DNA of 64,000 nucleotides, from NCBI RefSeq assembly GCF_003688895.1, contig NZ_REFV01000004.1, positions 124,001 to 188,000 of the forward strand. Reading direction: 5' to 3'. The DNA is from Dokdonia sinensis. GTDB lineage: Bacteria; Bacteroidota; Bacteroidia; Flavobacteriales; Flavobacteriaceae. This document shows, piece by piece, positions 157 through 63,842 of the stretch. Positions within the stretch are counted from its first letter, which is position 1. Each line of letters starts with the position of its first letter. Position numbers and translations under genes: made by a program. A model generated the notes under the pieces. It was given only the letters and a program-made list of their open reading frames with translations, did no database searches and was not told where the DNA came from.

Positions 157-1296
157 ATGAAACACCTACTCACGTTACTATGTGTACTGCTCTTGATTTC
201 TTGCGATACTGGTCCCACATTTTCTTGGAATCCTGAAATCGAAGAAACGGTTAGTGGTGATCTCACCGCTTGGCTTAAAAGCGCACCCTTTGACGGGCTC
301 TGGGATCCTAATGATAATGACCGTGGTGACGTTTACATTACCAACGCACGAGAGGTATTTCCTTTTATAGGTGAGCTTATTAATGAGGATAATAATTTAG
401 TCCTGATTAGCGAAAAAAACAGACCGTTTTACAAGGAGCAGCTTGTTGTTTTTAAAGACCCTACTTGGGGCGAAAGCGTGGTTTATGGAAGTTTACTTTA
501 CGATAGCCAAGAACTGTTTATGCGTAAGTCTTATTCAAAATCGGCAAATATTATTACAGATGGTCTGGCAAATATGAACAACCGTAATTACGCCAGCCTT
601 GGGGCGACTGAACTGATTGCTACTACAGCAGACCATAAAACAGCTGCCTATTGGGTCCAGGCAAACAATACGACCTACTTAATGGGGTTTTATCAGAAAG
701 ACCAGCTTGCCTTTCAAGTCGCTTTTCCCTGCCCGATGACTAAAAAAGAAAAAGGACTGGCACAACTTAAAAAAGTAGCAGCAACCTTACAGTTAGACAT
801 CCCAGCCTGGAAAAATGCTGCCGCTGACGACTTAGCGAGAGCAGACCGTACAGATGCTTTCTGGCAAGATCCGTACATTCCGCTGTTTTACTCTCGAGGG
901 TTAATGCCTATTATAAACATAAAACTCAAAGGCACCCTTTTTGAAAAGGAGACATTTAATAGACAGTCGCGCTCTTCAAACAAGGCAAGCATAAGCCACG
1001 TAGCTGGTGACAAAACCTACACACTGACCATAAGCAAAGAAGACACGGAGTTAAGTGCACTCGCTTTTCGCGAAAGCGAAACCAGCAAACCACTACCAGG
1101 TGCCGTAGATAAGGACCGAGAGTACATACTTGAAACTACCGAAAGTGGCGCAATGACCCAAATAAAAGCCACCACCTATTACAAAGACCATCAAGTATTT
1201 GTATTTACCTACACCTACCCCACTGCTCAAACTGATCAAGCCGCAGTACTTAACACCGTATTGCAAACCATAAAAATAAGTCGTTACACCATTTAA
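157..1296 (+). CDS. Lipoprotein of unknown function, 379 aa
   Basis: The N-terminus is a short lipoprotein signal with a lipobox ending LLISC (Cys16), so the product is probably anchored in the cell envelope. I recognise no domain in the rest, which is soluble and rich in polar residues. A copy of the dispersed palindrome, with one extra T, lies at 1062-1078 and reads LAFRESE in frame near residue 305. The next small gene follows after 10 bases, so the two are probably co-transcribed. Function unknown. Confidence 0.8.
   Translation: MKHLLTLLCVLLLISCDTGPTFSWNPEIEETVSGDLTAWLKSAPFDGLWDPNDNDRGDVYITNAREVFPFIGELINEDNNLVLISEKNRPFYKEQLVVFKDPTWGESVVYGSLLYDSQELFMRKSYSKSANIITDGLANMNNRNYASLGATELIATTADHKTAAYWVQANNTTYLMGFYQKDQLAFQVAFPCPMTKKEKGLAQLKKVAATLQLDIPAWKNAAADDLARADRTDAFWQDPYIPLFYSRGLMPIINIKLKGTLFEKETFNRQSRSSNKASISHVAGDKTYTLTISKEDTELSALAFRESETSKPLPGAVDKDREYILETTESGAMTQIKATTYYKDHQVFVFTYTYPTAQTDQAAVLNTVLQTIKISRYTI
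1062..1078. repeat. Dispersed palindrome, variant with extra T, in CDS
   Basis: CGCTTTTCGCGAAAGCG, the 16-bp core with one added T. It lies inside the lipoprotein gene and is read in frame as AFRES. Confidence 0.85.
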
Positions 1297-1306
1297 GTCG
1301 CAGGCT

Positions 1307-1630
1307 ATGTACAATCTAGAAGACATTTTTGCACTAGTACAAGCAGGTAAAAAACTGGAAGCCATAAAGCGGTTACGGCTTATGTATACTGGTTTAGGAT
1401 TAAAAGGTGCACACGATATGGTACAATCAATAGCAGATGGGTCATTGACTCGTGAAGAAGCCATAGAAAAACTAAAAAATCATACTCGCCTCACACAAGC
1501 AGTTCCTGAAAACGGAAATATAATCATCGAGAAAAGCACAAAAGACAAGGTTATAGGTTGGCTGGCGGTGATTGTACTTCTTATCTTGATGTTTATCATT
1601 ATGTATGCCGTTGGCACTTTCAATATCTAA
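1307..1630 (+). CDS. Small membrane-anchored protein with L7/L12-CTD-like segment
   Basis: 107 residues. Residues 14-40 (GKKLEAIKRLR...TGLGLKGAHDMV) closely resemble the helix-turn-helix face of the ribosomal protein L7/L12 C-terminal domain (IKxVR..TGLGLKEAKDLV). A basic linker follows, then one C-terminal membrane helix (about residues 83-103). It is not ribosomal L12: it lacks the N-terminal dimerisation domain and hinge and has a membrane tail. A paralogue of the same design lies at 22967-23308. The role is unknown; a protein-docking module facing the cytoplasm is a guess. Confidence 0.8.
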   Translation: MYNLEDIFALVQAGKKLEAIKRLRLMYTGLGLKGAHDMVQSIADGSLTREEAIEKLKNHTRLTQAVPENGNIIIEKSTKDKVIGWLAVIVLLILMFIIMYAVGTFNI

Positions 1631-1641
1631 AAACAAACACG

Positions 1642-2283: not shown

Positions 2284-3246
2284 ATGACCATCGTTTCAAA
2301 AGACATTGCGCACGCAGCACAATTACTAAGACAGGGAGCACAAGTTGCTATCCCAACCGAGACGGTATACGGTCTTGCGGCGAATATTTATGATACCACG
2401 GCGGTGCAAGGCATTTTTAAAATGAAGCAGCGGCCATTATTTAATCCGCTTATTGTGCATACGTTTGGGGTGGAGCAGCTGGAGCAGTTTGTAAGTTATA
2501 TTCCGCTTAAAGCGAAAAGGCTTGCGGAGGCCTTCTGGCCTGGTTCGCTCACCTTAGTTTTACCTAAAAAATCAAACGTGCCAGACATTATCACGGCCGG
2601 TAAAGACACGGTTGCTGTGCGTGTCCCTAATCACCCGCTTACACTTGATCTATTGCGTTTGCTGGACTTTCCGCTGGCGGCGCCCAGTGCAAATCCTTTT
2701 GGATCCATAAGCCCCACCACAGCGCAGCACGTAAAAAATTACTTTGACGGTACACTTAAAATGGTACTAGACGGCGGCCCGTGTCAGAATGGGATAGAAT
2801 CTACCATTGTAGGTTTTGAAGGCGATGAGCCGGTGATTTACCGCTTAGGCAGCATCTCTGTAGAGCACATTGAGGCAGTCATTGGTCCAGTGCCTGTTAA
2901 AAACAAAAAAGAAAACGCCCCACAAGCGCCAGGCATGTTATCGCGTCACTATGCACCAGATACACGCACGTTTTTAGAGGAGGATATATACGCTTTCGCG
3001 AAAGCGTATCCAGAAAAATCCATTGGCGTCATTTCATTTTCTGAAGTATTTACAGCGCCTAACATTAAGGCAATAGAAGTGCTTTCTCCCGAGGCCAACT
3101 TGCAAGAAGCGATGTCTAATCTGTACGCTGCATTGCACAGCCTAGACGCAAAAGGACTAGACATCATCGTCGCACAACGCTTTCCAGACACAGGATTAGG
3201 AAAATCTATGAACGATCGCCTAGAGCGCGCTACTAAAGGGAAATAA
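2284..3246 (+). CDS. tsaC: L-threonylcarbamoyladenylate synthase (Sua5/YrdC/YwlC family)
   Basis: Makes threonylcarbamoyl-AMP from threonine, bicarbonate and ATP, the first step of t6A37 tRNA modification, in the cytosol. The YrdC-type domain (about residues 1-200) carries the PTETVYGLAA start motif, KxRP (KMKQRP), the SLTLVLP and SAN segments. The C-terminal Sua5 domain starts with the typical PGMLSRHYAP signature (about residues 218-227). The 320-residue length fits the two-domain Sua5 form rather than short TsaC. One exact dispersed palindrome (2991-3006) is read in frame as YAFAKAYP in the Sua5 domain. Confidence 0.93.
   Translation: MTIVSKDIAHAAQLLRQGAQVAIPTETVYGLAANIYDTTAVQGIFKMKQRPLFNPLIVHTFGVEQLEQFVSYIPLKAKRLAEAFWPGSLTLVLPKKSNVPDIITAGKDTVAVRVPNHPLTLDLLRLLDFPLAAPSANPFGSISPTTAQHVKNYFDGTLKMVLDGGPCQNGIESTIVGFEGDEPVIYRLGSISVEHIEAVIGPVPVKNKKENAPQAPGMLSRHYAPDTRTFLEEDIYAFAKAYPEKSIGVISFSEVFTAPNIKAIEVLSPEANLQEAMSNLYAALHSLDAKGLDIIVAQRFPDTGLGKSMNDRLERATKGK
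2991..3006. repeat. Dispersed palindrome, exact copy, in CDS
   Basis: CGCTTTCGCGAAAGCG flanked by TA on each side, extending the symmetry to 20 bp. It is read as AFAKA within the Sua5 domain. Confidence 0.95.
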
Positions 3247-5101: not shown

Positions 5102-5117
5102 CGCTTTCGCGAAAGCG
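5102..5117. repeat. Dispersed palindrome, exact copy, intergenic
   Basis: CGCTTTCGCGAAAGCG in the 105-base gap between the methyltransferase and cruF; symmetry extends to ACGCT...AGCGT. Confidence 0.95.
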
Positions 5118-8622: not shown

Positions 8623-8638
8623 CGCTTTCGCGAAAGCG
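8623..8638. repeat. Dispersed palindrome, exact copy, intergenic
   Basis: CGCTTTCGCGAAAGCG in the 58-base gap between the AraC regulator stop and the start of the beta-lactamase-fold lipoprotein. Confidence 0.95.
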
Positions 8639-9556: not shown

Positions 9557-11758
9557 TTGGAAGATATTTTACTCATAACGCCGCCCTTTACACAGCTTAA
9601 CACGCCTTATCCAGCGACGGCGTACATCAAAGGTTTTTTGAATACAAAAGGAGTTCCGAGTTTCCAGATGGATTTAGGGATTGAGGTGATTCTTGAGCTA
9701 TTTACAAGTGCTACGTTTACAGCGATTTTTGACGAAATAAAAAAGTCAAACATTGAACTCTCCCACAATGCTGCACGCATACTCGCTTTAAGCAAGCAGT
9801 ATACGCAACCTCTAGATCGTGTAATTGCTTTTTTACAAGGCAAAAATCCTACGTTTGCGCGTCAAATATGCACCGCTAATTTCCTACCGCGTGCCTCTCG
9901 TTTTGAGCAGCTGGATGATTTGAATTGGGCGTTTGGCGAGATGGGAATGCAGGACAAGGCAAAACATCTGGCGACCTTATATTTAGAAGATCTTTCAGAC
10001 TTTCTTGTGGAGTGTGTAGACCCACATTTTGGGTTTAGTCGGTATGCCGAAAAGCTGGGACAGAGTGCAAATAATTTTGACGAACTGTATGAGCGTCTGC
10101 AAGATGATCTAACCTATATAGACCAGATTACGATTGCTTTGTTGGAATTACGCTTTCGCGAAAGCGTACCCGAATTAAATTCAGGACGCGCACCCAAACT
10201 CGTTTTACTCTCAGTGCCATTTCCCGGAAATCTGTATAGCGCCTTCCGTTGTGGGCAATATATAAAAACGCATTTTCCGGATGTAAAAGTTGCGATGGGC
10301 GGTGGTTTCCCAAATACCGAATTACGGTCTATCACAGATGCTCGCGTATTTGAATTTGTTGATTACATCACTCTAGACGACGGCGAGTTGCCCGTAGAAC
10401 TTTTGATAGACGCAGTTGTTAATAAAAGCCCAGAACCAACTTATAAACGTACGTTTTTACTAGAAAATGGCGAGGTGGTTTATAAAAACGACACGCTAAA
10501 ACCAGAATATAAACAAGCCCAGCTAGGCACTCCAGACTATTCTGATTTGTTACTAGAAGAGTATATATCTGTCATTGAGATTGCAAACCCAATGCACAGC
10601 TTGTGGAGCGATGGTAGATGGAACAAACTCACGATGGCGCACGGTTGTTACTGGGGCAAGTGTACATTTTGTGATATCTCGCTAGATTATATTAAAATTT
10701 ATGAGCCTATTGCCGCGACGATTCTCGTAGATCGTATGGAGCAGCTGGTAGCGCAAACTGGCGAGACTGGTTTTCACTTTGTAGATGAAGCTGCACCTCC
10801 AGCACTTATGAAAGCTGTTGCCCTAGAAATACTCAAACGTGAACTCGTCGTAACTTGGTGGACAAACATTCGGTTTGAAAAAAACTTTACCGCAGATTTA
10901 TGCGTGCTCCTTAAAGCTTCTGGGTGTATTGCTGTTTCTGGCGGTCTGGAAGTAGCGTCAGATAGATTACTTAAACTTATAGATAAAGGAGTAACTGTGG
11001 CGCAAGTCGCTCAAGTTACTCGTAATTTTACTGCTGCTGGAATTATGGTGCACGCCTATTTAATGTATGGTTATCCCACGCAAACGGTACAAGAAACGGT
11101 AGATAGTCTGGAGATGGTACGCCAGTTGTTTGAGCTTGGGATTATACAATCTGGATTTTGGCATCAGTTTGCGCTTACCGCACATAGCCCTGTAGGTTTG
11201 GAACCAGAAGCTTATGGAATTACACCACATTATAATGAGATCTCGTTTGCAAATAACGACGTTGACTTTACAGACAGCACGGGAATAGACCACAGTGCTT
11301 TTAGTTATGGACTCAAGAAATCACTTTTTAATTATATGCACGGGATTGGTTTTGACTTATCCTTGCAAGAATGGTTTGATTTTGAAATTCCAGAAGCTAC
11401 TATACAGCAACATTATATAGAAGATTGTCTCAATGTGTCTGCAGAGCTCACTGTAAAACCTACTGCCAAAATCATTTGGTTAGGAACCACGCCTATAGTC
11501 GACTCATTTACGAAGAAAAAGAGAGCGATGTCCAGGCTTACCTTTCACGAAGTAGACGACGTGTTTGAAATCGTATTAGCACAAGAACAAGCCGATTGGC
11601 TCTTGGAAATATTACCAAGCTTACAACCTTCTAGCGGTAGAACGCAAACTTTTGCCACGATTAAAAAGGATTTTGAGTCTCGCTTTGAACATTTTGAACT
11701 GTTCTGGTTCTCAAAGCCTATGGGAACATTGCGGGAAAGTGGACTTTTAATCTTATAA
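9557..11758 (+). CDS. B12-binding-type radical SAM enzyme
   Basis: 733 residues from a TTG start. The N-terminus DILLITPPF is typical of B12-binding-domain radical SAM proteins, and a cobalamin-like Rossmann segment (VAMGGGFPNTE...) lies near residues 240-290, without a visible DxHxxG. The cluster-binding motif is C364-X4-C369-X2-C372 (HGCYWGKCTFCD), one residue longer than the usual CX3CX2C. SGGLEVASDRLL follows, as in the SAM-binding region. The substrate is unknown. One palindrome (10151-10166) is read as LRFRESV. The AraC gene is divergent and frnE follows. Confidence 0.85.
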   Translation: MEDILLITPPFTQLNTPYPATAYIKGFLNTKGVPSFQMDLGIEVILELFTSATFTAIFDEIKKSNIELSHNAARILALSKQYTQPLDRVIAFLQGKNPTFARQICTANFLPRASRFEQLDDLNWAFGEMGMQDKAKHLATLYLEDLSDFLVECVDPHFGFSRYAEKLGQSANNFDELYERLQDDLTYIDQITIALLELRFRESVPELNSGRAPKLVLLSVPFPGNLYSAFRCGQYIKTHFPDVKVAMGGGFPNTELRSITDARVFEFVDYITLDDGELPVELLIDAVVNKSPEPTYKRTFLLENGEVVYKNDTLKPEYKQAQLGTPDYSDLLLEEYISVIEIANPMHSLWSDGRWNKLTMAHGCYWGKCTFCDISLDYIKIYEPIAATILVDRMEQLVAQTGETGFHFVDEAAPPALMKAVALEILKRELVVTWWTNIRFEKNFTADLCVLLKASGCIAVSGGLEVASDRLLKLIDKGVTVAQVAQVTRNFTAAGIMVHAYLMYGYPTQTVQETVDSLEMVRQLFELGIIQSGFWHQFALTAHSPVGLEPEAYGITPHYNEISFANNDVDFTDSTGIDHSAFSYGLKKSLFNYMHGIGFDLSLQEWFDFEIPEATIQQHYIEDCLNVSAELTVKPTAKIIWLGTTPIVDSFTKKKRAMSRLTFHEVDDVFEIVLAQEQADWLLEILPSLQPSSGRTQTFATIKKDFESRFEHFELFWFSKPMGTLRESGLLIL
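10151..10166. repeat. Dispersed palindrome, exact copy, in CDS
   Basis: CGCTTTCGCGAAAGCG flanked by TA on both sides, read as RFRES near residue 200 of the radical SAM protein. Confidence 0.95.
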
Positions 11759-13744: not shown

Positions 13745-15451
13745 ATGTCTCAAAAATCAACTAAAATACCTAACGGCGTAATGCTCAACGCATATCCAGA
13801 TAGCATAGGTACAAAACTAAGTGATACTGTAGCTCTATTAAAAAGACCTGAATTCAAGGATGTTTTTTCTTTGTTTTATGCGCTCCCTACGTTTTTTAAT
13901 AGCGATCTGGATCGTGGTTTTTCAATCATAGATTATGACCTAAATAAAGATCTCGTCACACCAGAGGATCTAGAGACCTTAGAGGAACTTAATGTGATGC
14001 TCAAGTTTGACATTGTACTCAATCACCTTTCTGTGGGTTCGCCGCAATTTCAAGATATGCTTACGCACGGGGATGACTCTAAGTACAAGGATTTCTTCAT
14101 TAATTGGAATCAGTTTTGGGAAGGAAATGGCACTAAAAACGAGCAGGGCATCATCGTCCCAAAAAAGGAGTATCTCGATAAGCTCTTTATGCGCAAGCCC
14201 GGCCTCCCTATTCTCAATGTACTATTTCCCGATGGCAGCGAGCGCCCGTATTGGAATACATTCTATCAGCAGGTGACCTTCCACCCTATCCAGCAAAAAG
14301 ATTTAGAAGGTATTGATATTTCAGAAGATGACCGAGCGCATACTGTATCGCTGGTAAATGATGCGATTGGAGCTGGAGAAGAACTGTCTAGTATACGCTT
14401 TCGCGAAAGCGTACGACCACACAAAAAACACATACTCACCGTCGTAAATCAGAAACGCACCTACCTGGGCCAGATGGATGTAAATGCAAATTCTGAGCTT
14501 GTTTGGGATTTTTACGATGAGACGCTTAAGAAAGTGAGCGCGTTTGGCTGTAAAATATTACGTCTGGATGCTTTTGCTTATTTGCATAAGGAAGTTGGGA
14601 AGACTAACTTTTTTAATACGCCAGGCACTTGGGATCATCTCGAACGCATCAGAAAAATTGCCGAAAAATATGAGCTTGTTTTACTTCCAGAAATACACTC
14701 AGAATACGGTTTAGGATTGCACGACGAGGTAGCGAGTAAAGGCTACCAAATCTATGATTTTTTCTTCCCAGGATTAGTCATTCATACCCTAGAAACCGCG
14801 GATGCCACTGCGCTGGTCAAGTGGGCAAATGAAATAGTGACTAAAGTTTACAAGACCGTAAATATGCTAGGCTGTCACGACGGGATTCCCGTTCTAGATC
14901 TCAAAGGCGTTGAGAAAAACGGCGAGTATCATAAAGGGTTGCTTCAAGATGCTGAGATAGAAAATATCATCAATATCATTCTGGACCGTGGTGGTCGGGT
15001 CAAGAATATTTATGATCCCGAGGGAAATAAAATTTCTTATTATCAGGTAAATGCGACATTTTATAGTGCTCTGGGTGAAAACGATGACAAGTTACTTCTT
15101 GCGCGTGCGTTACAGCTCTTTATGCCTGGAATACCACAGATATGGTATCTTGATTTGTTTGCTGGAAAAAATGACTACGTCGCTGCAGATGCTGCTGGTA
15201 CTGGCGGTCACAAAGAAATAAACCGAACGACATTATCACAAGAGGATATAGAAGCAGGTTTGCAAAAAGAAGTTGTGCTTAGACAGCTAGAAATGTTGCG
15301 TCTACGCAATACACATCCGGCATTTAACGGGAAGCTCTCGGTGACAAATATCAATAAAGACTACCTTGAAATTTCGTGGAAAAACGGGGACGAAATTGCG
15401 CTACTCAAGGCAGATCTGAGTGATATGACTTTTGAAATTACTGTCTCATAA
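13745..15451 (+). CDS. GH13 family glucosyl phosphorylase, sucrose-phosphorylase-like
   Basis: 568 residues of TIM-barrel GH13 without signal peptide. Likely catalytic residues are nucleophile D275 (LRLDAFAY), acid/base E316 (LLPEIHS) and transition-state Asp D379 (GCHDGIP). The [15 protein letters not shown] segment and overall order fit subfamily GH13_18 (sucrose, glucosylglycerol or glucosylglycerate phosphorylase), which releases glucose-1-phosphate; I cannot tell which acceptor. A palindrome (14396-14411) is read as IRFRESVRP near residue 220, in the extra domain before the nucleophile strand. Confidence 0.85.
14396..14411. repeat. Dispersed palindrome, exact copy, in CDS
   Basis: CGCTTTCGCGAAAGCG with TA flanks, read as RFRES in the GH13 phosphorylase-like gene. 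Confidence 0.95.
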
Positions 15452-16454: not shown

Positions 16455-16470
16455 CGCTTTCGCGAAAGCG
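16455..16470. repeat. Dispersed palindrome, exact copy, intergenic
   Basis: CGCTTTCGCGAAAGCG 18 bases after the stop of the dienelactone hydrolase gene. Confidence 0.95.
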
Positions 16471-21819: not shown

Positions 21820-21834
21820 CGCTTTCGCGAAAGC
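21820..21834. repeat. Dispersed palindrome, near-exact copy, intergenic
   Basis: CGCTTTCGCGAAAGC followed by A instead of G, in the 216-base gap before the oxidoreductase pseudogene. Otherwise the gap shows only AT-rich sequence and a C-rich stretch. Confidence 0.9.
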
Positions 21835-21934
21835 AAACCCCACAACCCCACCCTCCACGTTAAACTCATCCTAATCCTCATAAAAAACTTCCCGTCCCAG
21901 CGTTCATTTCTTAACTTTAAAAGAAAACCTAGAA

Positions 21935-26423: not shown

Positions 26424-26436
26424 CGCTTTCGCGAAA
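26424..26436. repeat. Dispersed palindrome, truncated copy, intergenic
   Basis: CGCTTTCGCGAAA then TTAA instead of GCG: the right arm is lost. It lies 44 bases before the HerA-like gene. Confidence 0.8.
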
Positions 26437-26480
26437 TTAATACTGAACTCGTTTCAGTAGCGTAACCACAACAACAAGAA

Positions 26481-33883: not shown

Positions 33884-33891
33884 ATACCTTT

Positions 33892-36724: not shown

Positions 36725-36775
36725 AACGGTTTTTATTATTTTGCATAATGGTCCGCTTTGAGGAGGTGTTTATTA

Positions 36776-36908: not shown

Positions 36909-36933
36909 ATTCCTAAACCATAAAACCAACAAA

Positions 36934-37536
36934 ATGAAAAAAATAGCAAGCATAGCCTTTATGAGTCTAGCCATACTAGCAACAAGCTGTAAAAAAGATA
37001 AAAAAGAAGATAATAACGCCGAAGATAAGGTTGAAGCAACTACATCAGAAGACAACAGCTCAAATATAAGCGAAGCTGCTAAAGAAGAGAAAGTTACTTT
37101 TAAATTATCTCCCAAAAGCGGAAGCAAAGCCTCAGGAAGCGTTGTTTTTAAGGAGAATGATGGTAAAGTCACTTTTACAGCCGTAATTGGCGGTCTTGCC
37201 GAAGGTACCCACGCCATCCACATACATGAAAGTGCAGATTGCTCTTCAGAAGACGGAAAATCTACTGGCGGTCATTGGAATCCTACAGGAAAACCTCACG
37301 GAAAATGGGGCGATGCAGGAGGATATCATAAAGGTGACATCGGAAACTTTGAAGCAGATGAGAATGGAAATGGGACCATCACAATGACCACAGACGAGTG
37401 GTGTATAGGCTGTGATGATGCTAGTAAGAATGTTTTAGGAAAGGCGATTATTGTACACCAAGGAGTAGATGATTTTACGTCTCAACCTAGTGGTGATGCT
37501 GGAGCGAGAATAAGCTGTGGCGGGATTATCCAATAA
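36934..37536 (+). CDS. sodC: Cu/Zn superoxide dismutase, lipoprotein
   Basis: 200 residues from the ATG at 36934. Lipobox LATSC (Cys19), then a charged linker (residues 20-52) and the SodC fold. Metal ligands: copper H96, H98, H175 with bridging H114; zinc H122, H132, D135; catalytic Arg192; disulfide Cys in ADC103 and SC195. It dismutates superoxide in the periplasm or at the surface. A strong terminator follows. Confidence 0.95.
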   Translation: MKKIASIAFMSLAILATSCKKDKKEDNNAEDKVEATTSEDNSSNISEAAKEEKVTFKLSPKSGSKASGSVVFKENDGKVTFTAVIGGLAEGTHAIHIHESADCSSEDGKSTGGHWNPTGKPHGKWGDAGGYHKGDIGNFEADENGNGTITMTTDEWCIGCDDASKNVLGKAIIVHQGVDDFTSQPSGDAGARISCGGIIQ

Positions 37537-39623: not shown

Positions 39624-40408
39624 CGTATGTGCTCTCCTCCGTCCACAGGAATAACCGTACCATTAATCCATCGAGCTTCATCGCGACATAATAGATACAC
39701 AGCGTTTGCAACGTCTTGAGGCGTGGTTAATCTTCCATACGGATTACGCCTTAAGGTTTCGGACTTCATCATCTCACTCCCTGGAATCATTCGTAAACTT
39801 TCTGTATCCGTAACCCCTGCTTTAATACAATTTGCCTTGAGGTGTATAGGGGCAAATTCTAATGCGATGCCTCGTATGATACTTTCTAGTGCGGCTTTGG
39901 CAGCAGCGACGGCTCCGTACTGGTGCCAAGCCCGTGTACTACCCTCGCTTGTAAATGCAATGACTCTGGCGTCGTGGGTAAATAATTCCGCTTTCGCGAA
40001 AGCGGAAACCCAATCATAACAATTTATCGCCATTGCATCTATAGTTAACTTGAAATCTTCATTAGTCAGGGTTCTTTCCGTCTCGTGATATAGAGGTTTT
40101 AGGTTTCCTCTTGCAATACTGTGCACTAGTACCTTAAATGCTCCAATTCCTACATTTTTAAGTGCCTCCTGAACAACTGCCGAACGTTTTTCTGCGTTCA
40201 TCGCATCTATATTGAATTGATAAATTTTTGTACCCTGTTCCTCTAATTTTCTTGTAATACTTTCTAGGTCGCCTAAAACACTTCTCCTACTGCGATGCAC
40301 GATGAACAGGTGCATTCCCTCTTGGGCTAACTTTTGAGCCGTAGCAAGTCCCAAACCGCTACTACCGCCTAAAATTATAGCCCATTTATTTTTATATGAT
40401 TGTTCCAT
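39620..40408 (-). CDS. SDR enoyl-ACP reductase-like, FabL/FabI type
   Basis: 262 residues. Rossmann fold with GGSSGLG near the N-terminus, HSIARG (FabI-like) and a Tyr164-X6-Lys171 pair (YGAVAAAK). That spacing is typical of enoyl-ACP reductases, not of ketoreductases (YX3K). The final GTVIPVDGGEHI closes the SDR. The palindrome at 39989-40004 is read as SAFAKAELF near residue 137. Reduces enoyl-ACP (inferred). A ketoreductase is not in the operon. Confidence 0.85.
   Translation of the reverse strand: MEQSYKNKWAIILGGSSGLGLATAQKLAQEGMHLFIVHRSRRSVLGDLESITRKLEEQGTKIYQFNIDAMNAEKRSAVVQEALKNVGIGAFKVLVHSIARGNLKPLYHETERTLTNEDFKLTIDAMAINCYDWVSAFAKAELFTHDARVIAFTSEGSTRAWHQYGAVAAAKAALESIIRGIALEFAPIHLKANCIKAGVTDTESLRMIPGSEMMKSETLRRNPYGRLTTPQDVANAVYLLCRDEARWINGTVIPVDGGEHIR
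39989..40004. repeat. Dispersed palindrome, exact copy, in CDS
   Basis: CGCTTTCGCGAAAGCG with CC/GG flanks, read as AFAKA in the enoyl reductase-like protein. Confidence 0.95.
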
Positions 40409-42173: not shown

Positions 42174-43291
42174 TATATCGGAGTACCGTGAGTTGATTTA
42201 ATAACTTTGGTTAATGTTCTGGGTGAACGCCTTAAAAAATTTACCGCAAGTTTGGTAATAATAGTACTTTGTAAGCCGCGCTGTATGATGCTACCATTGC
42301 GCATTCTTGCATTGAAGGTGTGATTCCATTCTTGGGTAAAACTTGTTTCTAAGTGAGCGCGCGTTGTTTGTTCTTCAAAATGGCTTAATAGGGCTTGTGA
42401 AACTATTTTTGCACTATGTATGGCCATTGCCATCCCATTACCACATAGCGGATGAATAAGTCCTGCGCTATCTCCTACCATTAAAATATGATTTTCTACA
42501 GCGGTTTTCTTTTCAAACGATATTTGACTAATAGATAATGGCTTTTCGAAAACCATTTCAGATTCGGAAAAGAAAGATTTTAATTTGCTGTTTTGTTCTA
42601 GAACTTCTTTTTGATAGATCTCTAGCGATTTGTATTTTTTAAATGACTCATAATCTGCGAGGTAGCATACATTTATTTTATTACCTTCAACTTTAGATAA
42701 GCCACAATATCCTCCTTTAAAGTGGTGTAATCCTACCAGATGGTCTGGAAAATCTGCCTTATAATGAGCTTTAACGCCAAGCCACGGAGATTTGTGTTGG
42801 ATAAACTTTCGCGAAAGCGTAATATCAAGTCCGCTTCTCTTTCCGTAGGCTCCTATGATATAATCTGCGGTGCAAGTGCCCCATATTTTTAAGGTCAGCT
42901 CGAAGATATTGTCACTAAAAGAAACGGACGTCACTTCATCTTTAATAACATCAACTCCCAAGGCGATTGCACGATCATAAAGTAGTTTGTCAAAAGTATA
43001 CCGACTCATACCAAATCCCCCTAGTGGCAACTCTGTCTCTAAACCATTTCCATAAAATCCTGTGAAGTGGAAATGCGTAATATTTGTAGCTCCGTGAGCA
43101 AAAGGTTCAATACCCAAATGTTTCAAGTAAGGAAGCACCTCATTAGATAAATATTCTCCGCATACCTTATGTTTAGGGTAGGATTGCTTTTCTATAAGTT
43201 GCACAGCACATCCTTTACCAGCAAGATGAATTGCGGCCGTTAATCCTGCAATACCTCCGCCTATAATTATTATGCTGTCTTGTTTTTTCAC
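42173..43291 (-). CDS. FAD-dependent monooxygenase, geranylgeranyl-reductase-like family
   Basis: 372 residues from the GTG at 43291, giving VKKQDSIIIIGGGIAG; a longer frame starting at TTG 43324 would lie inside the terminator hairpin. N-terminal FAD motif GGGIAGLTAAIHLAGKG, KHKVCGEYLS and the second FAD motif VGDSAGLIHPLCGNGMAMAI. First gene of the operon; it may oxidise the resorcinol or pyrone to a quinol or quinone (inference). A left-truncated palindrome (42805-42819) is read as TLSRKF. Confidence 0.88.
   Translation of the reverse strand: MKKQDSIIIIGGGIAGLTAAIHLAGKGCAVQLIEKQSYPKHKVCGEYLSNEVLPYLKHLGIEPFAHGATNITHFHFTGFYGNGLETELPLGGFGMSRYTFDKLLYDRAIALGVDVIKDEVTSVSFSDNIFELTLKIWGTCTADYIIGAYGKRSGLDITLSRKFIQHKSPWLGVKAHYKADFPDHLVGLHHFKGGYCGLSKVEGNKINVCYLADYESFKKYKSLEIYQKEVLEQNSKLKSFFSESEMVFEKPLSISQISFEKKTAVENHILMVGDSAGLIHPLCGNGMAMAIHSAKIVSQALLSHFEEQTTRAHLETSFTQEWNHTFNARMRNGSIIQRGLQSTIITKLAVNFLRRSPRTLTKVIKSTHGTPI
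42805..42819. repeat. Dispersed palindrome, left-truncated copy, in CDS
   Basis: ACTTTCGCGAAAGCG, one end of the core lost. It is read as LSRK, the only copy in this frame in the window's genes. Confidence 0.85.
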
Positions 43292-44995: not shown

Positions 44996-45059
44996 GGGCT
45001 GGGTGCTGGGTGCTGGGTGCTGGGTGCTGGGTGCTGGGTGCTGGGTGCTGGGTGCTGGT
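44996..45059. repeat. Heptanucleotide tandem repeat (GGGTGCT)8
   Basis: Eight perfect units of GGGTGCT (45001-45056) with partial units at both ends. It lies between the E1 fusion gene and the DUF1328 promoter, in otherwise AT-rich sequence. Confidence 0.95.
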
Positions 45060-45098: not shown

Positions 45099-47105
45099 TT
45101 AATAGGCTAGAAGCTCCTCGAGTGTTTCGAGCAATCTAGATTTGGACAGATATTGCTTCTCGAGTTCAGCATCAAAAGGGATTGGCGTGTCTAGACTTGT
45201 CACCCGGCGTACAGGAGCGTCAAGATGTTCAAAACAATCTTCCACAACCATTGCCGAGATATCTGACATCACAGACCCAAAAGATGAGTCCTCCGTAAGC
45301 AACAAGACTTTTCCCGTTTTCCTTACCGAAGCGTATATAGCTTCTTTATCTAATGGTTGGAGCGTTCTTAAATCTAGAACATCTGCGTCGATATGTGATG
45401 CGGTTTCTAATAATTCTAAAGCCCAATGAACACCTGCGCCATAAGTGATAATGGAAACCTGATTACCTTCCCTTAAAAGCGCTGCTTTTCCTAATGGTAT
45501 GGTATAATAGTTTGTAGGTACTTCCTGACGGATACTTCGGTAGAGTGCTTTATGTTCAAAAAATAAAACTGGATTTGGGTCTTCGATGGCGGTGGCTAGT
45601 AGACCTTTAGCATCTGCTGGAAAGGCTGGATAGACCACTTTTAAACCTGGCGTGTGCGTGAACCACGCTTCGTTTGTCTGCGAGTGAAAAGGTCCCGCGG
45701 CAACTCCTGCACCGCAAGGCATACGAATAACAACAGCTGCAGGTTGTGACCATCGGTAATGTGATTTAGCCAGATAATTTACGATGGGATTAAAACCAGA
45801 GGTTGCAAAATCTGAAAATTGCATTTCCATCATTGCTTTCTTTCCGTTAATCGCAAGTCCCATTGCCGTTTCGACGATGGCACTTTCACAAATGGGAGTA
45901 TTGCGCACTCGGTCGCGCCCAAACTGCGCTACAAATCCATCTGTGATTTTAAAAACGCCTCCATATTCGGCAACATCTTGCCCCATGATAATAAGGTCGT
46001 CGTATTTTTCCATAGACTGCCTTAAGCCCTGTGAGATAGCGTCTATGAGTCGGAGTTCTTCTGTTGTGGTGCTGGGTTCGCTTTCGCGGAAGCGGAATGG
46101 CGCATACACATCTTCCATTTCGGTTTCCAAATTTGGAACAATAGCATCCTCTGCATAAGCGGCATCCAGACCTTCGTTTATTTCGGCTAGGATTTCTTCG
46201 CTATACTGAACGTTGAGCTCCTCGGTAAGGATATTTTCATCCATTAAGAATTGCTGAAAGTTAGTCACGGGATCTTTTGCTCCCCACTCGTCCATCAACT
46301 CCTGCGGAACATATTTTGTACCGCTCGCCTCCTCGTGCCCGCGCATCCTGAAGGTTTTGAACTCAATGAGCACAGGTCGTGCATTGTTGCGCATACTTTC
46401 TGTAATCTCAGAAATTTTCGTGTATACCTCGAGGATATTATTACCGTCTATTATGTGGGATTCCATCCCGTAGCCCTTAGCACGGTCTGCAAGGTGCTCG
46501 CAGTTGTATTGTTCACTCGTAGGCGTAGATAGGCCGTAGCCATTATTCTCAATACAAAATAGCACGGGAAGTTGCCAAACGGAAGCGACATTAAGCGCCT
46601 CGTGAAAATCTCCCTCACTCGTACCTCCTTCCCCAGTAAATACTGCCGTAACGGCTTTTTCATTTCTGAGTTTGTGCGCTAGCGCGATCCCATCGGCCAC
46701 GCCCAACTGTGGACCTAAATGGGAAATCATTCCTACAATCTTATATTCCTGTGTCCCGAAGTGAAAACTACGGTCACGACCTTTTGTAAAGCCACTCGCC
46801 TTGCCTTGCCATTGGGTAAACAATCGATATAACGGGATTTCTCGTGTTGTGAAAACACCTAGGTTGCGATGCATGGGGAGAATGTATTCCTCAGCTTGCA
46901 TTGCGCTCGTCACACCTACAGATATGGCCTCCTGCCCTATTCCTGCAAACCACTTAGAAACCTTGCCTTGACGTAATAATATGAGCATTTTTTCCTCTAT
47001 CATACGCGGTTTAAGCATCGCGCGATAGAGCTTCAAAAGGGTGGTATCGTCCAGAGATTTACGGTCATATGTAAAGGGTACTGTAGGATTTGTGGTAGTC
47101 GCCAT
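45099..47105 (-). CDS. Fused E1 alpha/beta subunit of a 2-oxoacid dehydrogenase complex
   Basis: 668 residues. The alpha part (about 1-335) has the TPP motif FTGEGGTSEGDFHEALNVASVWQLPVLFCIENNGYG. The beta part (about 345-668) has IIMGQDVAEYGGVFKITDG and PCGAGVAAGPFHSQ. The two subunits are normally separate genes; such fusions occur in Bacteroidetes for branched-chain or pyruvate-type complexes. A variant palindrome (46079-46094) encodes FRFRESE exactly in the linker. E2 and E3 are not in the window. Confidence 0.92.
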   Translation of the reverse strand: MATTTNPTVPFTYDRKSLDDTTLLKLYRAMLKPRMIEEKMLILLRQGKVSKWFAGIGQEAISVGVTSAMQAEEYILPMHRNLGVFTTREIPLYRLFTQWQGKASGFTKGRDRSFHFGTQEYKIVGMISHLGPQLGVADGIALAHKLRNEKAVTAVFTGEGGTSEGDFHEALNVASVWQLPVLFCIENNGYGLSTPTSEQYNCEHLADRAKGYGMESHIIDGNNILEVYTKISEITESMRNNARPVLIEFKTFRMRGHEEASGTKYVPQELMDEWGAKDPVTNFQQFLMDENILTEELNVQYSEEILAEINEGLDAAYAEDAIVPNLETEMEDVYAPFRFRESEPSTTTEELRLIDAISQGLRQSMEKYDDLIIMGQDVAEYGGVFKITDGFVAQFGRDRVRNTPICESAIVETAMGLAINGKKAMMEMQFSDFATSGFNPIVNYLAKSHYRWSQPAAVVIRMPCGAGVAAGPFHSQTNEAWFTHTPGLKVVYPAFPADAKGLLATAIEDPNPVLFFEHKALYRSIRQEVPTNYYTIPLGKAALLREGNQVSIITYGAGVHWALELLETASHIDADVLDLRTLQPLDKEAIYASVRKTGKVLLLTEDSSFGSVMSDISAMVVEDCFEHLDAPVRRVTSLDTPIPFDAELEKQYLSKSRLLETLEELLAY
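46079..46094. repeat. Dispersed palindrome, one mismatch, in CDS linker
   Basis: CGCTTTCGCGGAAGCG, one A-to-G change; read as RFRES in the linker between the E1 alpha and beta parts. Confidence 0.88.
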
Positions 47106-48424: not shown

Positions 48425-49510
48425 TTAGAATGCCAGAGTCGCTTCCTTGTGCGCAAGTACCCACAGCTCCACTTCCTCAGAGCCTCGCCAGTGTTGCTCG
48501 CGTTTAGTTTTATCAGAAGCATTTTTAACTCTTTTCTTGTAGCAGCGTTCTAACTGGAACCTATCGCTATGTGCTAGTTCGGCCTCTATGGGATGCTCTT
48601 TTGTGACATTTGTGATACGTGCAATGTTAGAAAATAAAAGAACGAGTTTTCCATCTGGTAATAAGAGTTCTTTCGCTTTCGCGAAAAATTCAGGAAACAT
48701 TTGTTCATCATAATACATTGCATCATCCACATCTTTAAGACTTTCTGAAACTGGCAACCACGGGGGATTGAAAACAATAAGCTCCGTGGGTTTGTCAAAT
48801 TTTCCAAAAAATGGTGCGTGGTCCAACTCAATCTTACGCGAGAGTTTGGTTACCCCCATAGATTCCATTAAACCGAAAATAGCATTAGGATTTGTGTCTG
48901 TACCAAATACTTTTTGAAAACCGTGTTGTACCAATTGCAAGGCGAGAACGCCGCTACCTATTCCCACATCTACGGCAGTCTTTTTAGGACCCTCATATCG
49001 CTTTAACCAATTATCAAATACCTCCAAATGCTCAAAACGCGTAGGAAAATATATTCCATAAAAAGGATGTACTTTATTACGCAGGACTGGTATTACGATT
49101 CCATTTTTATACCATTGCCAGGAGCTGTTCATTCCTTGTGCTTTTGGGAATGGCAAGTAAAACTCTTCGTGCTCAGGATAGAGTTTTTTTAGCCAACCTA
49201 TCGCTGGTGCTTTTTTAACTATTAATTTATGGTCTATAACTTGGATAACAATGAGGTTAGACAGCCTATAATACTCAGCACGGTGCGCATATTGCTCTCT
49301 AAATGTGTCATTAGGCATCTTCTTATCCAGATAGTCCTTAACCGCCTTGAGTAATTGTAAGCCGTCGCTATAAAATCCCGAAATCAAAACTTCTTTCCCT
49401 CTTTCTAATGTCCTAAGCGTACGGCTTACGTCTGTCTCGCGCTCAAAAGTTGCAAATGGCTTTTCAAAAAAGATAGGTGATGGTCTGTTAATCTGAGGGG
49501 TAATCGTCAT
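48425..49510 (-). CDS. N5-glutamine-like / HemK-type methyltransferase
   Basis: 361 residues. N-terminal ~140 residues of unknown fold, then a class I SAM domain with VDVGIGSGVLALQLVQHG and the NPPW motif (ELIVFNPPWLPVSES), which marks methyltransferases acting on amide or amino nitrogen. The target may be a protein, rRNA or DNA. A right-truncated palindrome (48674-48686) is read as FFAKAKEL. Convergent with the GH130 gene. Confidence 0.82.
   Translation of the reverse strand: MTITPQINRPSPIFFEKPFATFERETDVSRTLRTLERGKEVLISGFYSDGLQLLKAVKDYLDKKMPNDTFREQYAHRAEYYRLSNLIVIQVIDHKLIVKKAPAIGWLKKLYPEHEEFYLPFPKAQGMNSSWQWYKNGIVIPVLRNKVHPFYGIYFPTRFEHLEVFDNWLKRYEGPKKTAVDVGIGSGVLALQLVQHGFQKVFGTDTNPNAIFGLMESMGVTKLSRKIELDHAPFFGKFDKPTELIVFNPPWLPVSESLKDVDDAMYYDEQMFPEFFAKAKELLLPDGKLVLLFSNIARITNVTKEHPIEAELAHSDRFQLERCYKKRVKNASDKTKREQHWRGSEEVELWVLAHKEATLAF
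48674..48686. repeat. Dispersed palindrome, truncated copy, in CDS
   Basis: CGCTTTCGCGAAA with the last GCG lost; read as FAKAK in the methyltransferase. Confidence 0.8.
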
Positions 49511-52029: not shown

Positions 52030-52842
52030 TCATAACACAAACTCCGCAACCGCCAGCGCGACCGCATCCTCCTTGTTTGTAAAAGGGCTTACGTAGTTTG
52101 CAATATCTTTAACGTTTTTAGTTCCATTTGCCACTGCAACGCCCCAACCAGAACGACGTAACAACTCTACATCGTTATGGTTATCGCCAAAGGATATTAC
52201 ATTTTCTATATCAAAATCAAACTCAGCAGCAAGCAAGAATTCTAGCGCTTTTGCTTTGTCTATGTTTTTAGGAGTAATCTCCACATAGGTATCTTTAGAA
52301 CGGTAAAAATGAACAGTATCAGAAAAATCTGCTTCTAAAAATGTTATGATTTCGTCTATTTCGGCAACGGCACCCATACACATCAATTTGTGGATGCCTA
52401 AATTTTCAGATTCCAAAAAACGGAGACTTTCGGTTACTGATTGATATTTAGGGTGGACTCGCGTGTTATTTATTTCGCGTAAGCTCCACGCGTCCTCCTT
52501 GTCTGTAAACCAATGGTTGTGACTGTAAATGCTCAAATTATAACCGCGGCTCTTGTGATGTGGAATGAGTCTTTCTAATACTTCGGTGGAGAAGTTATTG
52601 CTTTGTAGCTGCTTTCCTCCTTTACCTAATATGAGTCCGCCATTGTAGGCTATTAATGCTTCTCCTTTTATACCGAGACCATCTTGTAAATAGCCCATCG
52701 CATTAGGCATTCTCGCCGAGGCGAAGATGATGGGTAAGTCCGCTTTCGCGAAAGCGGAAACAGTAAGCTTACTTAGCCATCTCTCAGCATTGAGTAACGT
52801 TCCGTCTATGTCTGTGCAGAAAGCTTTTATCTCATTCTTCAT
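52030..52842 (-). CDS. Cof-type HAD phosphatase
   Basis: 270 residues. HAD motif I AFCTDIDGTLLN, motif II SARMP, motif III Lys in IDKAKALEFLL and motif IV VISFGDNHNDVELL; the C2 cap lies between. Cof proteins dephosphorylate sugar phosphates, pyridoxal-P or flavins. An exact palindrome (52741-52756) is read as SAFAKADLP in the first helix after motif I, where relatives have a longer, different helix. Confidence 0.9.
   Translation of the reverse strand: MKNEIKAFCTDIDGTLLNAERWLSKLTVSAFAKADLPIIFASARMPNAMGYLQDGLGIKGEALIAYNGGLILGKGGKQLQSNNFSTEVLERLIPHHKSRGYNLSIYSHNHWFTDKEDAWSLREINNTRVHPKYQSVTESLRFLESENLGIHKLMCMGAVAEIDEIITFLEADFSDTVHFYRSKDTYVEITPKNIDKAKALEFLLAAEFDFDIENVISFGDNHNDVELLRRSGWGVAVANGTKNVKDIANYVSPFTNKEDAVALAVAEFVL
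52741..52756. repeat. Dispersed palindrome, exact copy, in CDS
   Basis: CGCTTTCGCGAAAGCG read as AFAKA between HAD motifs I and II of the Cof phosphatase. Confidence 0.95.
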
Positions 52843-52868
52843 ACAACAAAGATAAGGAGAGCATGTAG

Positions 52869-52930
52869 ATGAGGGATGAGGGATGAGGGATTAGGGATGA
52901 GATTTGAGATTTGAGATTTGAGATTTGAGA
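52869..52930. repeat. Two adjacent heptanucleotide tandem repeats
   Basis: About five units of GATGAGG (one GATTAGG) followed by four units of GATTTGA. Period 7 as in the (GGGTGCT)8 tract at 45001. It lies between the Cof phosphatase and the typA terminator. Confidence 0.85.
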
Positions 52931-58467: not shown

Positions 58468-58505
58468 CGCTCTGAAATCACTTCAGAGTAAATTTCGCGA
58501 AAGCG
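58468..58505. repeat. Composite palindrome: core split by a 22-bp hairpin insert
   Basis: CGCT (58468-58471), a 22-bp insert (58472-58493) built as stem CTGAA-loop-TTCAG plus AGTAAAT, then TTCGCGAAAGCG (58494-58505). The insertion junction is the same as in the composites at 16993 and 24159, but with another insert. Confidence 0.88.
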
Positions 58506-61864: not shown

Positions 61865-63142
61865 ATGCTCAATCTTTTGCTCAAAAATACCTTTTTTTTA
61901 ATGCTCCCGCTCCTTATTTCTTGTGGAAATAATGTGGGTGGTAGTGATAACGCTTTCGCGAAAGCGGACTCATTCCCACAAAATTCAAAATTAAAAATTC
62001 AAGATTCAAAAATTGCTGATTCTTCTATTATCGTAGGAGCAAATAGAATTGACGAATATCTGCCACTTCTCCAAAATAAAAAAGTAGGAATCGTCACAAA
62101 CCAGAGCGGACTTATTTTCAAATCCTATCCTCACAACAAGGAAAATGCTACTCATATTGTAGACTCCCTTATTGCACGTGATATTGAGGTTATAAAGATT
62201 TTCTCGCCAGAACACGGTTTTCGCGGTGACGGAGATGCGGGTGAAAAAATAAAAGATGGAAAAGACCCGAAGACAGGACTTCCCATCATCTCCCTGCACG
62301 GAAAAAACAGAAAACCGAGCCAAGAGCAACTGGATGGATTAGACATCATCGTTTTTGATATTCAAGATGTGGGCGTTCGGTTTTATACTTACATTTCTAC
62401 ACTCACCCACGTAATGGAAGCGACAGCAGAAAAAGGAGTTCCCGTCATTGTGCTCGATAGACCAAACCCAAATGCCCATTATATAGATGGTCCTACTTTA
62501 CAAAAGCAACATTCTAGTTTCCTAGGAATGCACGAGATCCCGCTCGTTTACGGGATGACGATAGGAGAATATGCCCGTATGGTAAATGGTGAAGGCTGGC
62601 TCAAAGACAAGATGCAATGCGAGCTTACCGTAATCCCGCTTGAGAACTGGAGCTATCAATCTAAATATTCACTCCCCACGAGACCTTCCCCGAATCTTCC
62701 GAATGATAAATCTATAAACTTGTATCCCAGTCTCGGCTTTTTTGAAGGAACGACTATAAATGCTGGTCGCGGTACCGAAATGCAATTTCAAGTTTTTGGT
62801 TCACCACATTTACCTAAAGAATATTATCCGTTTACGTATACGCCAGAGCCTAATTTTGGCTCTAAAGACCCCAAAGAAAAAGGAAACCTTTGCTACGGTT
62901 TAGACCTAAGAAATGAACCGTACCTAAAACGTGTCAACCTAGAATGGCTGGTAGAAGCCTACAACGCAAGCAATGACAAAGTAAACTTCTTTAAAACAGA
63001 CGGTTTTACCCTACATGCAGGAACAACCGAATTAGAAAAACAAATTAAGGAAGGATACACTTTTAGAGAAATTAGAAAAGGCTGGTTTAAAGATATTGAG
63101 AGCTTTAAGAAAACAAGAGCAAAGTATCTTATATATGAATAA
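61865..63142 (+). CDS. namZ: DUF1343 lipoprotein, exo-beta-N-acetylmuramidase NamZ-like
   Basis: 425 residues. Signal with lipobox LLISC (Cys20). The DUF1343 domain has VGIVTNQSG, IFSPEHGFRGDGDAGEKI, GLPIISLHG, DIQDVGVRFYTYISTL, DRPNPN and GMTIGEYARMVNGEGWL, as in NamZ, which removes terminal MurNAc from peptidoglycan fragments. An exact palindrome (61951-61966) sits just after the lipobox as NAFAKADS. It overlaps the next gene by 8 bases. Confidence 0.92.
   Translation: MLNLLLKNTFFLMLPLLISCGNNVGGSDNAFAKADSFPQNSKLKIQDSKIADSSIIVGANRIDEYLPLLQNKKVGIVTNQSGLIFKSYPHNKENATHIVDSLIARDIEVIKIFSPEHGFRGDGDAGEKIKDGKDPKTGLPIISLHGKNRKPSQEQLDGLDIIVFDIQDVGVRFYTYISTLTHVMEATAEKGVPVIVLDRPNPNAHYIDGPTLQKQHSSFLGMHEIPLVYGMTIGEYARMVNGEGWLKDKMQCELTVIPLENWSYQSKYSLPTRPSPNLPNDKSINLYPSLGFFEGTTINAGRGTEMQFQVFGSPHLPKEYYPFTYTPEPNFGSKDPKEKGNLCYGLDLRNEPYLKRVNLEWLVEAYNASNDKVNFFKTDGFTLHAGTTELEKQIKEGYTFREIRKGWFKDIESFKKTRAKYLIYE
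61951..61966. repeat. Dispersed palindrome, exact copy, in CDS
   Basis: CGCTTTCGCGAAAGCG read as AFAKA in the flexible linker right after the lipobox of the NamZ-like protein. Confidence 0.95.
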
Positions 63143-63818
63143 GGAGCAGAAAGAAGATTTTTACCGCCGATTATCAGCTTTATTCTCTAAATATGAATCC
63201 ATACTTACAAGTCCAGAACAACTCGAAATACTGAAAAAGGGTTTTGCATTTTCTGATATAGATTATAACGCAGATGTACTGATTATGGGGATGAACCCCT
63301 CACTGCGCACGAATTTCCTTTCTGAAGATGGTTATTCCTATGACTACCCATTGCAATCTCAAGATATGTACTTTAAGAAATTCTATAAATTATTAGAGCC
63401 ATATTCTGAACATAAAATATCCTACACAGACCTATTTTACCAAAAACACTCAGAACAAGTAAAACTCAAATATTTCTTAAAAGACAAAAACGGAAGAGAA
63501 TTTCTACAAGAACAACTCGAGCTCACCAAAGCACAAATCATTAAAACACAACCCAAACTTATATTACTATTCAACAAGCAGGGTGCAGATTTCTTTAGAA
63601 CGCCTTGGCTTCCCGTACAAATCGAAAGCGTAGAGAACACTCCTATTCCAGAACTAAAAAGCATAAATTTTTACGCTTCCGACGGAAGCTCAATATGTAA
63701 GCTTCTAGCCTATTTTTCGACCTATTTAGGGTATCGTACCTCAAAGAAAGCACTTGAAAAAGTGCATCGAGAAATTCCTGAAATCTTTAAGTATCTTAGC
63801 AATTACATTCAAAATTGA
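63135..63818 (+). CDS. Uncharacterised protein, possibly uracil-DNA-glycosylase fold
   Basis: 227 residues from the ATG at 63135, overlapping the NamZ stop. DVLIMGMNPSLRTNF near residue 50 resembles the motif A strand-loop of the UDG superfamily, and QPKLILLFNKQGADFF then IPELKSINFYASDGSSICKLLAYF could supply later motifs, but the key catalytic residues are not clear. Annotate as unknown. Cytosolic. Confidence 0.7.
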   Translation: MNKEQKEDFYRRLSALFSKYESILTSPEQLEILKKGFAFSDIDYNADVLIMGMNPSLRTNFLSEDGYSYDYPLQSQDMYFKKFYKLLEPYSEHKISYTDLFYQKHSEQVKLKYFLKDKNGREFLQEQLELTKAQIIKTQPKLILLFNKQGADFFRTPWLPVQIESVENTPIPELKSINFYASDGSSICKLLAYFSTYLGYRTSKKALEKVHREIPEIFKYLSNYIQN

Positions 63819-63826
63819 CTTTTTTG

Positions 63827-63842
63827 CGCTTTCGCGAAAGCG
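63827..63842. repeat. Dispersed palindrome, exact copy, intergenic
   Basis: CGCTTTCGCGAAAGCG 8 bases after the stop of the preceding gene. Confidence 0.95.

Follow-up and report, generated by a model that had tools for sequence, protein, structure and literature searches.

An evenly spaced and conserved 16-bp palindrome of Dokdonia and Nonlabens genomes is a putative binding site for a clade-specific protein

The 64,000-nucleotide stretch of the Dokdonia sinensis genome analyzed here in its entirety (contig NZ_REFV01000004.1, positions 124,001 to 188,000; hereafter, the window) contains numerous copies of the 16-bp palindrome CGCTTTCGCGAAAGCG. In total, 21 sites were identified, namely 12 exact copies and 9 degenerate copies with one to three mismatches, a set that consists of the copies with an intact TTTCGCGAAA core together with two core-mutated copies. 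The sites are listed below by window position; no strand is assigned.

1063-1078: degenerate copy, 3 mismatches, left arm changed, TTTCGCGAAA core and right arm intact; genic
2991-3006: exact copy; within a gene for a Sua5-type threonylcarbamoyl-AMP synthase
5102-5117: exact copy; intergenic
8623-8638: exact copy; intergenic
10151-10166: exact copy; within a radical-SAM gene
14396-14411: exact copy; genic (weak alpha-amylase match below the curated cut-off)
16455-16470: exact copy; intergenic
21820-21835: 1-mismatch copy, outermost base; intergenic
26424-26439: one-arm copy, right arm with 3 mismatches; intergenic
29614-29629: exact copy; within an alpha/beta-hydrolase gene
31825-31840: 1-mismatch copy, core base altered; within a glyoxalase-family gene
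33869-33884: 1-mismatch copy, outermost base; gap by our gene calls, in the longer mechanical open reading frame (ORF) 33826-34527
36776-36791: exact copy; gap by our gene calls, in the minus-strand mechanical ORF 36714-37223
39989-40004: exact copy; within a short-chain dehydrogenase gene
42804-42819: 2-mismatch copy, left arm; within an FAD-binding monooxygenase-like gene
46079-46094: 1-mismatch copy, core base altered; within a dehydrogenase E1/transketolase-like gene
48674-48689: one-arm copy, right arm with 3 mismatches; genic
52741-52756: exact copy; within a HAD-hydrolase gene
58490-58505: one-arm copy, left arm with 3 mismatches; intergenic
61951-61966: exact copy; within a NamZ-type exo-muramidase gene
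63827-63842: exact copy; intergenic

Our gene calls place 12 of the 21 sites (7 of the 12 exact copies) within genes and 9 (5 exact) in gaps, the class of the two gap sites at 33869 and 36776, which fall within longer mechanical ORFs, hinging on the gene start that is chosen. A preliminary description of this DNA had reported 12 exact copies distributed over genes and gaps alike, and had judged such recurrence of a 16-mer unlikely to arise by chance. All 12 were recovered at the same coordinates, and the 17 window matches to CGCTTTCGCGAAAGCG with at most two mismatches compare with 0.01 expected from 100 dinucleotide-preserving shuffles; the TTTCGCGAAA core occurs 19 times, against 0.10 expected under an order-3 Markov model. 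The 8 near-exact or truncated copies of that description come close to our own count, although we find 9 degenerate ones.

In the assembly from which the window derives (G000; 3.65 Mb in 43 contigs), exact matches number 630 for the palindrome and zero for the reversed control, so that the genome-wide count called for by the preliminary description turned out to be far above chance. Among Dokdonia, the palindrome is present in all 18 genomes searched, 5 of them less than 90% complete, at 138-711 copies each. Across a sample of 298 genomes of the family, any copy at all was found in 37, and only G000 (630), G010 (495), G241 (579) and G190 (153) are rich in it, the other 33 having 1-13 copies; we take G010 and G241 to be Nonlabens, and G190 belongs to a further genus. 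Among the matches listed, 67 of 80 genome-contig loci are titled Dokdonia, Nonlabens or Flavobacteria bacterium BBFL7, and the remaining 13 are scattered. In a tree of the E1-dehydrogenase protein from 25 genomes (26 were searched, and G014, which yielded paralogues only, was dropped), the motif-rich genomes are found on one side of a branch with support of 46/87 (45% of bootstrap trees), and the grouping of Dokdonia with G190 is supported at 96/91. BipA was rejected as a phylogenetic marker, being too conserved. This distribution is compatible with a single origin of the palindrome in the motif-rich clade. In 40 kb from each of ten other genera, picked non-randomly among genomes that hold 1-4 copies of the 16-mer and have known long contigs, no palindromic 12-mer or 14-mer exceeded two occurrences. 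The open-licence literature in PubMed Central (PMC) did not contain CGCTTTCGCGAAAGCG, returned only papers on other subjects (as judged by their listing) for the inner 10-mer and only listings on other subjects for Dokdonia or Nonlabens palindromes, and held no paper that ties a highly iterated palindrome to Flavobacter- names and nothing related to natural transformation of Dokdonia.

The strongest new result, which is absent from the preliminary description, is the even spacing of the sites. The 20 intervals between sites in the window have a mean of 3,138 bp and a coefficient of variation (CV) of 0.37, and not one of 20,000 uniform draws was as even. Exact copies less than 1 kb apart number 3 in the Dokdonia genome G298, 2 in G000 and 2 in Nonlabens, against 21.1, 11.2 and 12.0, respectively, in class-matched placements. 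When all intact-core copies were used, again with class-matched simulation, the observed and simulated interval CVs were 0.43 and 1.02 in G000 (52 intervals), 0.71 and 1.03 in G298 (108 intervals), 0.81 and 1.06 in the Dokdonia genome G301 (97 intervals), and 0.49 and 0.90 in Nonlabens (19 intervals); G298 and G301 have orthologous sites in common, and their data come from a single part of the chromosome. Intervals shorter than 1.5 kb make up 6-11% of those observed and 35-39% of those simulated, that is, they are 3-6 times rarer, and intervals longer than 6 kb make up 5-11% and 16-18%. When compared with 7- and 8-mers of similar abundance, the palindrome is matched in regularity by none of 837 in G298, none of 657 in G000 and one of 905 in Nonlabens, the motif's own inner 8-mer. 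Copies with a single mismatch that falls in the core lie at a median of 2.1-2.3 kb from the nearest strong copy (10 and 4 copies), compared with 0.8 kb for randomly placed points, which suggests that some weak copies stand in for strong ones. Two simple rules for the spacing were tried and rejected: one copy per gene or gap, with which 29.1 pairs closer than 1.5 kb would be expected in G298 and 7 were observed, and a hard 1.5-kb exclusion, which was suggested by a first subset but proved, in the larger set, to be a strong yet incomplete depletion (30 of 220 G298 intervals below 1.5 kb).

In the sampled sequence, a site occurs on average every 3.2-3.5 kb in G000, G298, G301 and G241, every 2.6-2.9 kb in G313, G300 and G303, and every 4.2-5.0 kb in G190 and G010, which extrapolates to about 1,000 total copies per genome. 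Exact copies number 1-7 in each of twenty 20-kb stretches taken along the single contig of G298, and in the stretches sampled placement is chromosome-wide irrespective of gene direction. Between about 282 and 321 kb of G298, there are two degenerate copies and no exact one; two giant ORFs of about 13 and 15 kb (L269:6426-19721 and L270:3125-18283; about 288-320 kb) fill most of this part of the chromosome. According to our own gene-calling script, 49 of 109 copies in G298, 37 of 64 in G000 and 27 of 61 in Nonlabens are located within predicted genes; genes cover 89-91% of the DNA, and gaps are about 7-12 times denser in copies. The genic copies of Dokdonia favor one reading frame, Ala-Phe-Ala-Lys-Ala (30 of 49 in G298 and 26 of 37 in G000). 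Copies per kb of tandem, divergent and convergent gap, all based on small numbers, are 1.3, 1.1 and 1.35 in G298, 1.15, 0.6 and 1.2 in G000, and 1.1, 1.15 and 1.85 in Nonlabens. Because genes and all three gap types hold copies, in no constant order, the role of the palindrome is not bound to one kind of transcription border.

Comparison of orthologous positions indicates how the sites change. Nine genome pairs yielded 143 comparisons of sites with aligned flanks (sites recur between pairs, so that the comparisons are non-independent, and sites whose flanks did not align were left out), which were binned by local identity and set against control 16-mers drawn from coding and intergenic DNA. 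At 65-75% identity, 27 of 44 sites are exact and 11 carry one substitution, compared with 1-2% exact controls; the exact fraction is 19 of 35 at 75-82% identity (controls, 3-7%), 10 of 13 at 82-90% (13-18%) and 45 of 51 at 90-99% (about 50%). Only 3 of the 143 comparisons are gapped and 2 are alignment breaks, the remainder being exact or substituted. In one-mismatch copies, it is mostly the outermost base that differs (26 of 36 in G298, 13 of 16 in G000 and 5 of 8 in Nonlabens). The flanking bases diverge at the background rate while the 16-mer does not, which implies that the composition of the flanks is kept and their sequence is not. The site at 39989 has an orthologous position in each of the six other Dokdonia genomes aligned there, exact in five and with one substitution in G313. 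The preliminary description had taken sites fixed at the same place in every relative, with no polymorphism, to speak against its view; this site does hold the same place in the relatives, whereas at other sites bases were lost or gained through substitution. To judge from these alignments, the palindrome is conserved by selection.

Two further features that the preliminary description does not mention are the composition of the flanks and the independence of the two sides. Each arm carries its own 5' flank that is poor in C (and, equivalently, a G-poor 3' flank). At bases 4-19 of the 5' flank on both strands, C makes up 4-10%, against 12-21% at 50-60 bases, and the sequence is rich in T and G; the bias fades by about 30 bases and is seen in genes and gaps of Dokdonia and Nonlabens, and it is weak in G190. 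Gap copies are preferentially preceded by TTA in Dokdonia and by TTC or TTT in Nonlabens. At 66 sites that have lost one arm, the C fraction over bases 1-15 of the 5' flank is 0.12-0.145 on the lost side and 0.065-0.09 on the intact side. The bias relaxes on the side of the lost arm only; an arm and its near flank thus form a module, the arrangement that a dimer with extended contacts would require. Outside the 16 bp, left and right flanks are in most tests no more complementary than re-paired ones, and those of G298, alone among the genomes compared, are less complementary than expected (z -4.1 at bases 3-5 and -2.7 at bases 6-10). This independent variation of the two sides argues against a hairpin as the conserved entity.

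On the basis of these sequence patterns, we propose that CGCTTTCGCGAAAGCG and its flanks are a putative binding site of one clade-specific protein and that the sites act as marks on the chromosome, most likely for nucleoid organization; we assign this reading a probability of about 45%. A sequence-specific and probably dimeric DNA-binding protein would read the palindrome together with the flank specific to each arm, which extends for up to about 25 bp, and one such protein would serve the whole chromosome throughout the clade of Dokdonia, Nonlabens and at least one further genus. The bound copies would be evenly spaced chromosome marks, about one per 3.3 kb, that most likely contribute to nucleoid organization through anchoring or through the spacing of loops or domains, a role that best fits the even spacing. 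A narrower and more tentative version of this proposal is a chromosomal ruler, whereby the clade-specific protein would read an extended site every 3.3 kb or so, with selection against neighbors closer than about 1.5 kb and against intervals longer than about 6 kb. If true, the ruler would be a sequence-encoded, evenly pitched nucleoid scaffold, and we know of no such genome organization in bacteria. Palindromes of similar length, namely parS, the Noc-binding site, the SlmA site and matS of MatP, are bound by dimeric proteins that act on the chromosome, and number from a few to some tens, with a restricted or biased distribution; by contrast, the present motif has 630 exact copies in G000 (about 1,000 by extrapolation), is evenly spaced and has a different base pattern. 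The earlier description of a signal sequence of high copy number is supported by the count far above chance, the conservation, the even spacing and the clade restriction in the samples searched.

Several observations weigh against the binding-site proposal. G298 and G301 are less even than G000, and the Nonlabens simulation is small, its lowest simulated CV of 0.50 standing beside the observed 0.49 and the fractions of short and long intervals in Nonlabens falling within the simulated range. Core-mutated copies with two or three mismatches lie 0.9-1.3 kb from the nearest strong copy, little more than random points (7 and 21 copies, both genomes). At bases 16-25, the flanks of lost and intact arms are alike (0.142 and 0.158). 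The innermost flank base shows an excess of complementary pairs in G298 (z 2.7; 1.0 in G000 and -0.7 in Nonlabens), and a flank model with hidden orientation outperforms its 15 null sets without exception in G298 (a gain of 96.5, compared with 94.1 for the highest null set), a result not obtained in G000 or Nonlabens. Furthermore, an uptake or recombination signal would likewise be compatible with the coverage and the even spacing, and we infer the protein, its dimeric form and its architectural role.

A self-DNA uptake signal, comparable to the DNA uptake sequences (DUS) of Neisseriaceae and the uptake signal sequences (USS) of Pasteurellaceae, is a possible but considerably less probable explanation, under which fragments bearing the palindrome would be preferentially imported and recombined, so that copies accumulate and persist. 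Like USS and DUS, the palindrome occurs chromosome-wide in genes and gaps of several related genera and has a flanking bias; unlike them, it is perfect and longer, and close pairs are avoided. The clade-wide sharing of the palindrome and the presence of ComEC in 12 of 12 genomes fit uptake, and so does the preference of Riemerella columbina, a member of Flavobacteriaceae according to its paper, for its own DNA, although no signal has been established there (PMC7965970). In favor of uptake, too, the core is missing from the 30-kb pieces of the Nonlabens phages P12024S and P12024L (35.7-kb records, near relatives and hence not independent), with 8.6 sites each expected at host density; running counter to this absence, 41 stretches with a copy were found in IMG/VR, on contigs of varied G+C that are only candidate phages. 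A search with the extended 32-mer retrieved neither a phage nor a plasmid record of flavobacterial origin; the matches obtained, at E 3-9, are at chance level. The genome of G301 is a mosaic in which tracts mostly 94-98% identical to G298 or G313 alternate with DNA of 70-85% identity, which points to heavy homologous recombination between species; tracts at least 92% identical to G298 span 0.7-8.3 kb, and the 18 such tracts counted have a median length of 2.4 kb. Separately, loci L184, L185, L256-L260 and L294-L303 of G301 display segments close to two species groups, with sharp borders every few kb, in comparisons with G298, G313, G300 and G303. A site is present in 14 of the 18 tracts, against 10.8 expected, which would suit uptake, yet only 16 of 74 sites lie inside tracts, against 21.6 expected, where a 14.2-kb tract that spans unaligned sequence inflates both the tract fraction and the site expectation; these counts neither favor nor rule out an uptake role. 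Against uptake, no match to the T2SSE/PilB ATPase (PF00437), the sole uptake-pilus component tested, exceeded the cut-off in the Dokdonia genomes G000 and G298, in G010 or in G190; only 2 of 12 genomes, G241 and G214, had one above it (the G241 gene, in a genome we take to be Nonlabens, is at G241:C8:126205-127296, L277). Near neighbors are avoided here, unlike in Haemophilus influenzae, where 23% of USS10 lie within 100 bp of another (PMC7811141); because USS10 pairs are so often close, uptake or recombination signals fit the coverage and not the near-neighbor avoidance. One study argues that uptake sequences are less even than compaction sites should be, and also cites an earlier claim of significantly even spacing for them (PMC1939737).

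The other explanations appear progressively less probable. It is unlikely that the palindrome is a bidirectional Chi-like site that controls an AddAB-type end-resection nuclease and thereby starts recombination. The density of one site per 3-5 kb is similar to that of Chi, the 5' flanks are GT-rich on both strands, much as GT-rich islands surround Escherichia coli Chi, GAAAGCG presumably resembles Staphylococcus aureus Chi, and the lack of the core in the two phage pieces would fit here as well; G000 and G298 each have two PDDEXK_1 ORFs of about 900 and 1050 codons, the sizes of AddB and AddA, some 5 kb apart. However, PDDEXK_1 nucleases are found in all 12 genomes tested and do not track the motif. 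Chi is a short, directional motif recognized as a single strand, whereas this motif is palindromic and its isolated half-sites, at 12-46 per Mb, are about as frequent as by chance (about 21 per Mb under the Markov model), and where only one arm remains, it is the bias 5' of the intact arm that relaxes, opposite to what a RecA-loading reading implies. Lower still is the likelihood of a methylation-linked iterated palindrome, made and maintained by a solitary methyltransferase and mismatch repair, a model proposed for the cyanobacterial HIP1 (PMC4390886). The palindromic form, the GC-rich center and the iteration in genes and gaps agree with it; biased repair does not predict even spacing, and, counting further against it, we know of no methyltransferase target as long as 16 bp with arm-specific flanks. 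A hairpin, be it a terminator, an RNA-stability element or a cruciform, is highly improbable. The 22-mer folds to -7.3 kcal/mol (z -2.4), the first flank base pairs in excess in G298, and the sole G190 site with a change in each arm is compensatory; nevertheless, there is no constant preference for convergent gaps, about half of the copies are genic, the sides beyond 16 bp mostly do not co-vary, only 1 of 5 sites with one change per arm in G298 and G000 is compensatory, single-arm changes are far more common (51 versus 2 in G298), and the 3' flank is A/C-rich, without a T-run. Finally, we give almost no credence to a transposed miniature element resembling the repetitive extragenic palindromic (REP) sequences and bacterial interspersed mosaic elements (BIMEs) associated with RAYT transposases, which are likewise palindromic repeats of high copy number. 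The preliminary description had spoken of a miniature palindromic element, which in its mobile sense is not supported, given the rarity of gapped and broken alignments and the lack of a match to the REP-type transposase Y1_Tnp (PF01797) in G298, with its 704 copies; G190 (153 copies) had no match either. Y1_Tnp is present in 5 of 12 genomes, with one match in G000, six in G010 and two in G241. In nearly all aligned cases, polymorphism is by substitution, with hardly any insertion polymorphism; precise empty sites are absent in the closely related pairs compared; and the copies, about half of them genic by the fractions given above, are not essentially extragenic. None of the four families, Y1_Tnp, PilB ATPase, ComEC and PDDEXK_1, tracks the motif.

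Among the closest known counterparts of the palindrome is HIP1 (GCGATCGC), which is likewise a clade-restricted exact palindrome, present in very many copies in genes and gaps, of unsettled function; in common with it, the present motif is a short exact palindrome far above Markov expectation genome-wide. It differs in comprising a 16-bp core with arm-specific flanks, compared with 8 bp in HIP1, in the even spacing measured here, and in belonging to another phylum. To our knowledge, no function has been agreed upon for HIP1-like highly iterated motifs since the 1990s. Here, the palindrome is longer, sharper, evenly spaced and, in the samples searched, confined to a clade with non-bearing relatives, which makes the question of function testable: the site can serve as bait for the putative protein, and the genomes, which range from 138 to 711 exact copies and include incomplete ones, form a natural dose series. 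Should the architectural reading hold, it would demonstrate that the DNA sequence of a bacterium can specify a chromosome scaffold of even pitch.

The sparse copies of several motif-poor genera are found at recurrent positions, with flanks common to several genera. Gene annotation within the set of loci L150-L160 covered L150 (3641-19998) and L158 (3500-18112), both of which contain genes for RND efflux, an outer-membrane channel and a heavy-metal P-type ATPase, with genes for a multicopper oxidase, an ArsP permease and a CusB-like protein in L150 in addition. We infer a metal-efflux island derived from motif-bearing hosts, in which copies were retained; as such islands suggest, the palindrome could be a tracer of DNA exported from these genera. 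The window also contains three tandem arrays with a 7-base unit (44998-45058, 52868-52930 and 61979-62011), possibly slippage-prone switches, the first of which is perfect over 8.7 copies and lies in the gap adjoining the gene at 45099-47105.

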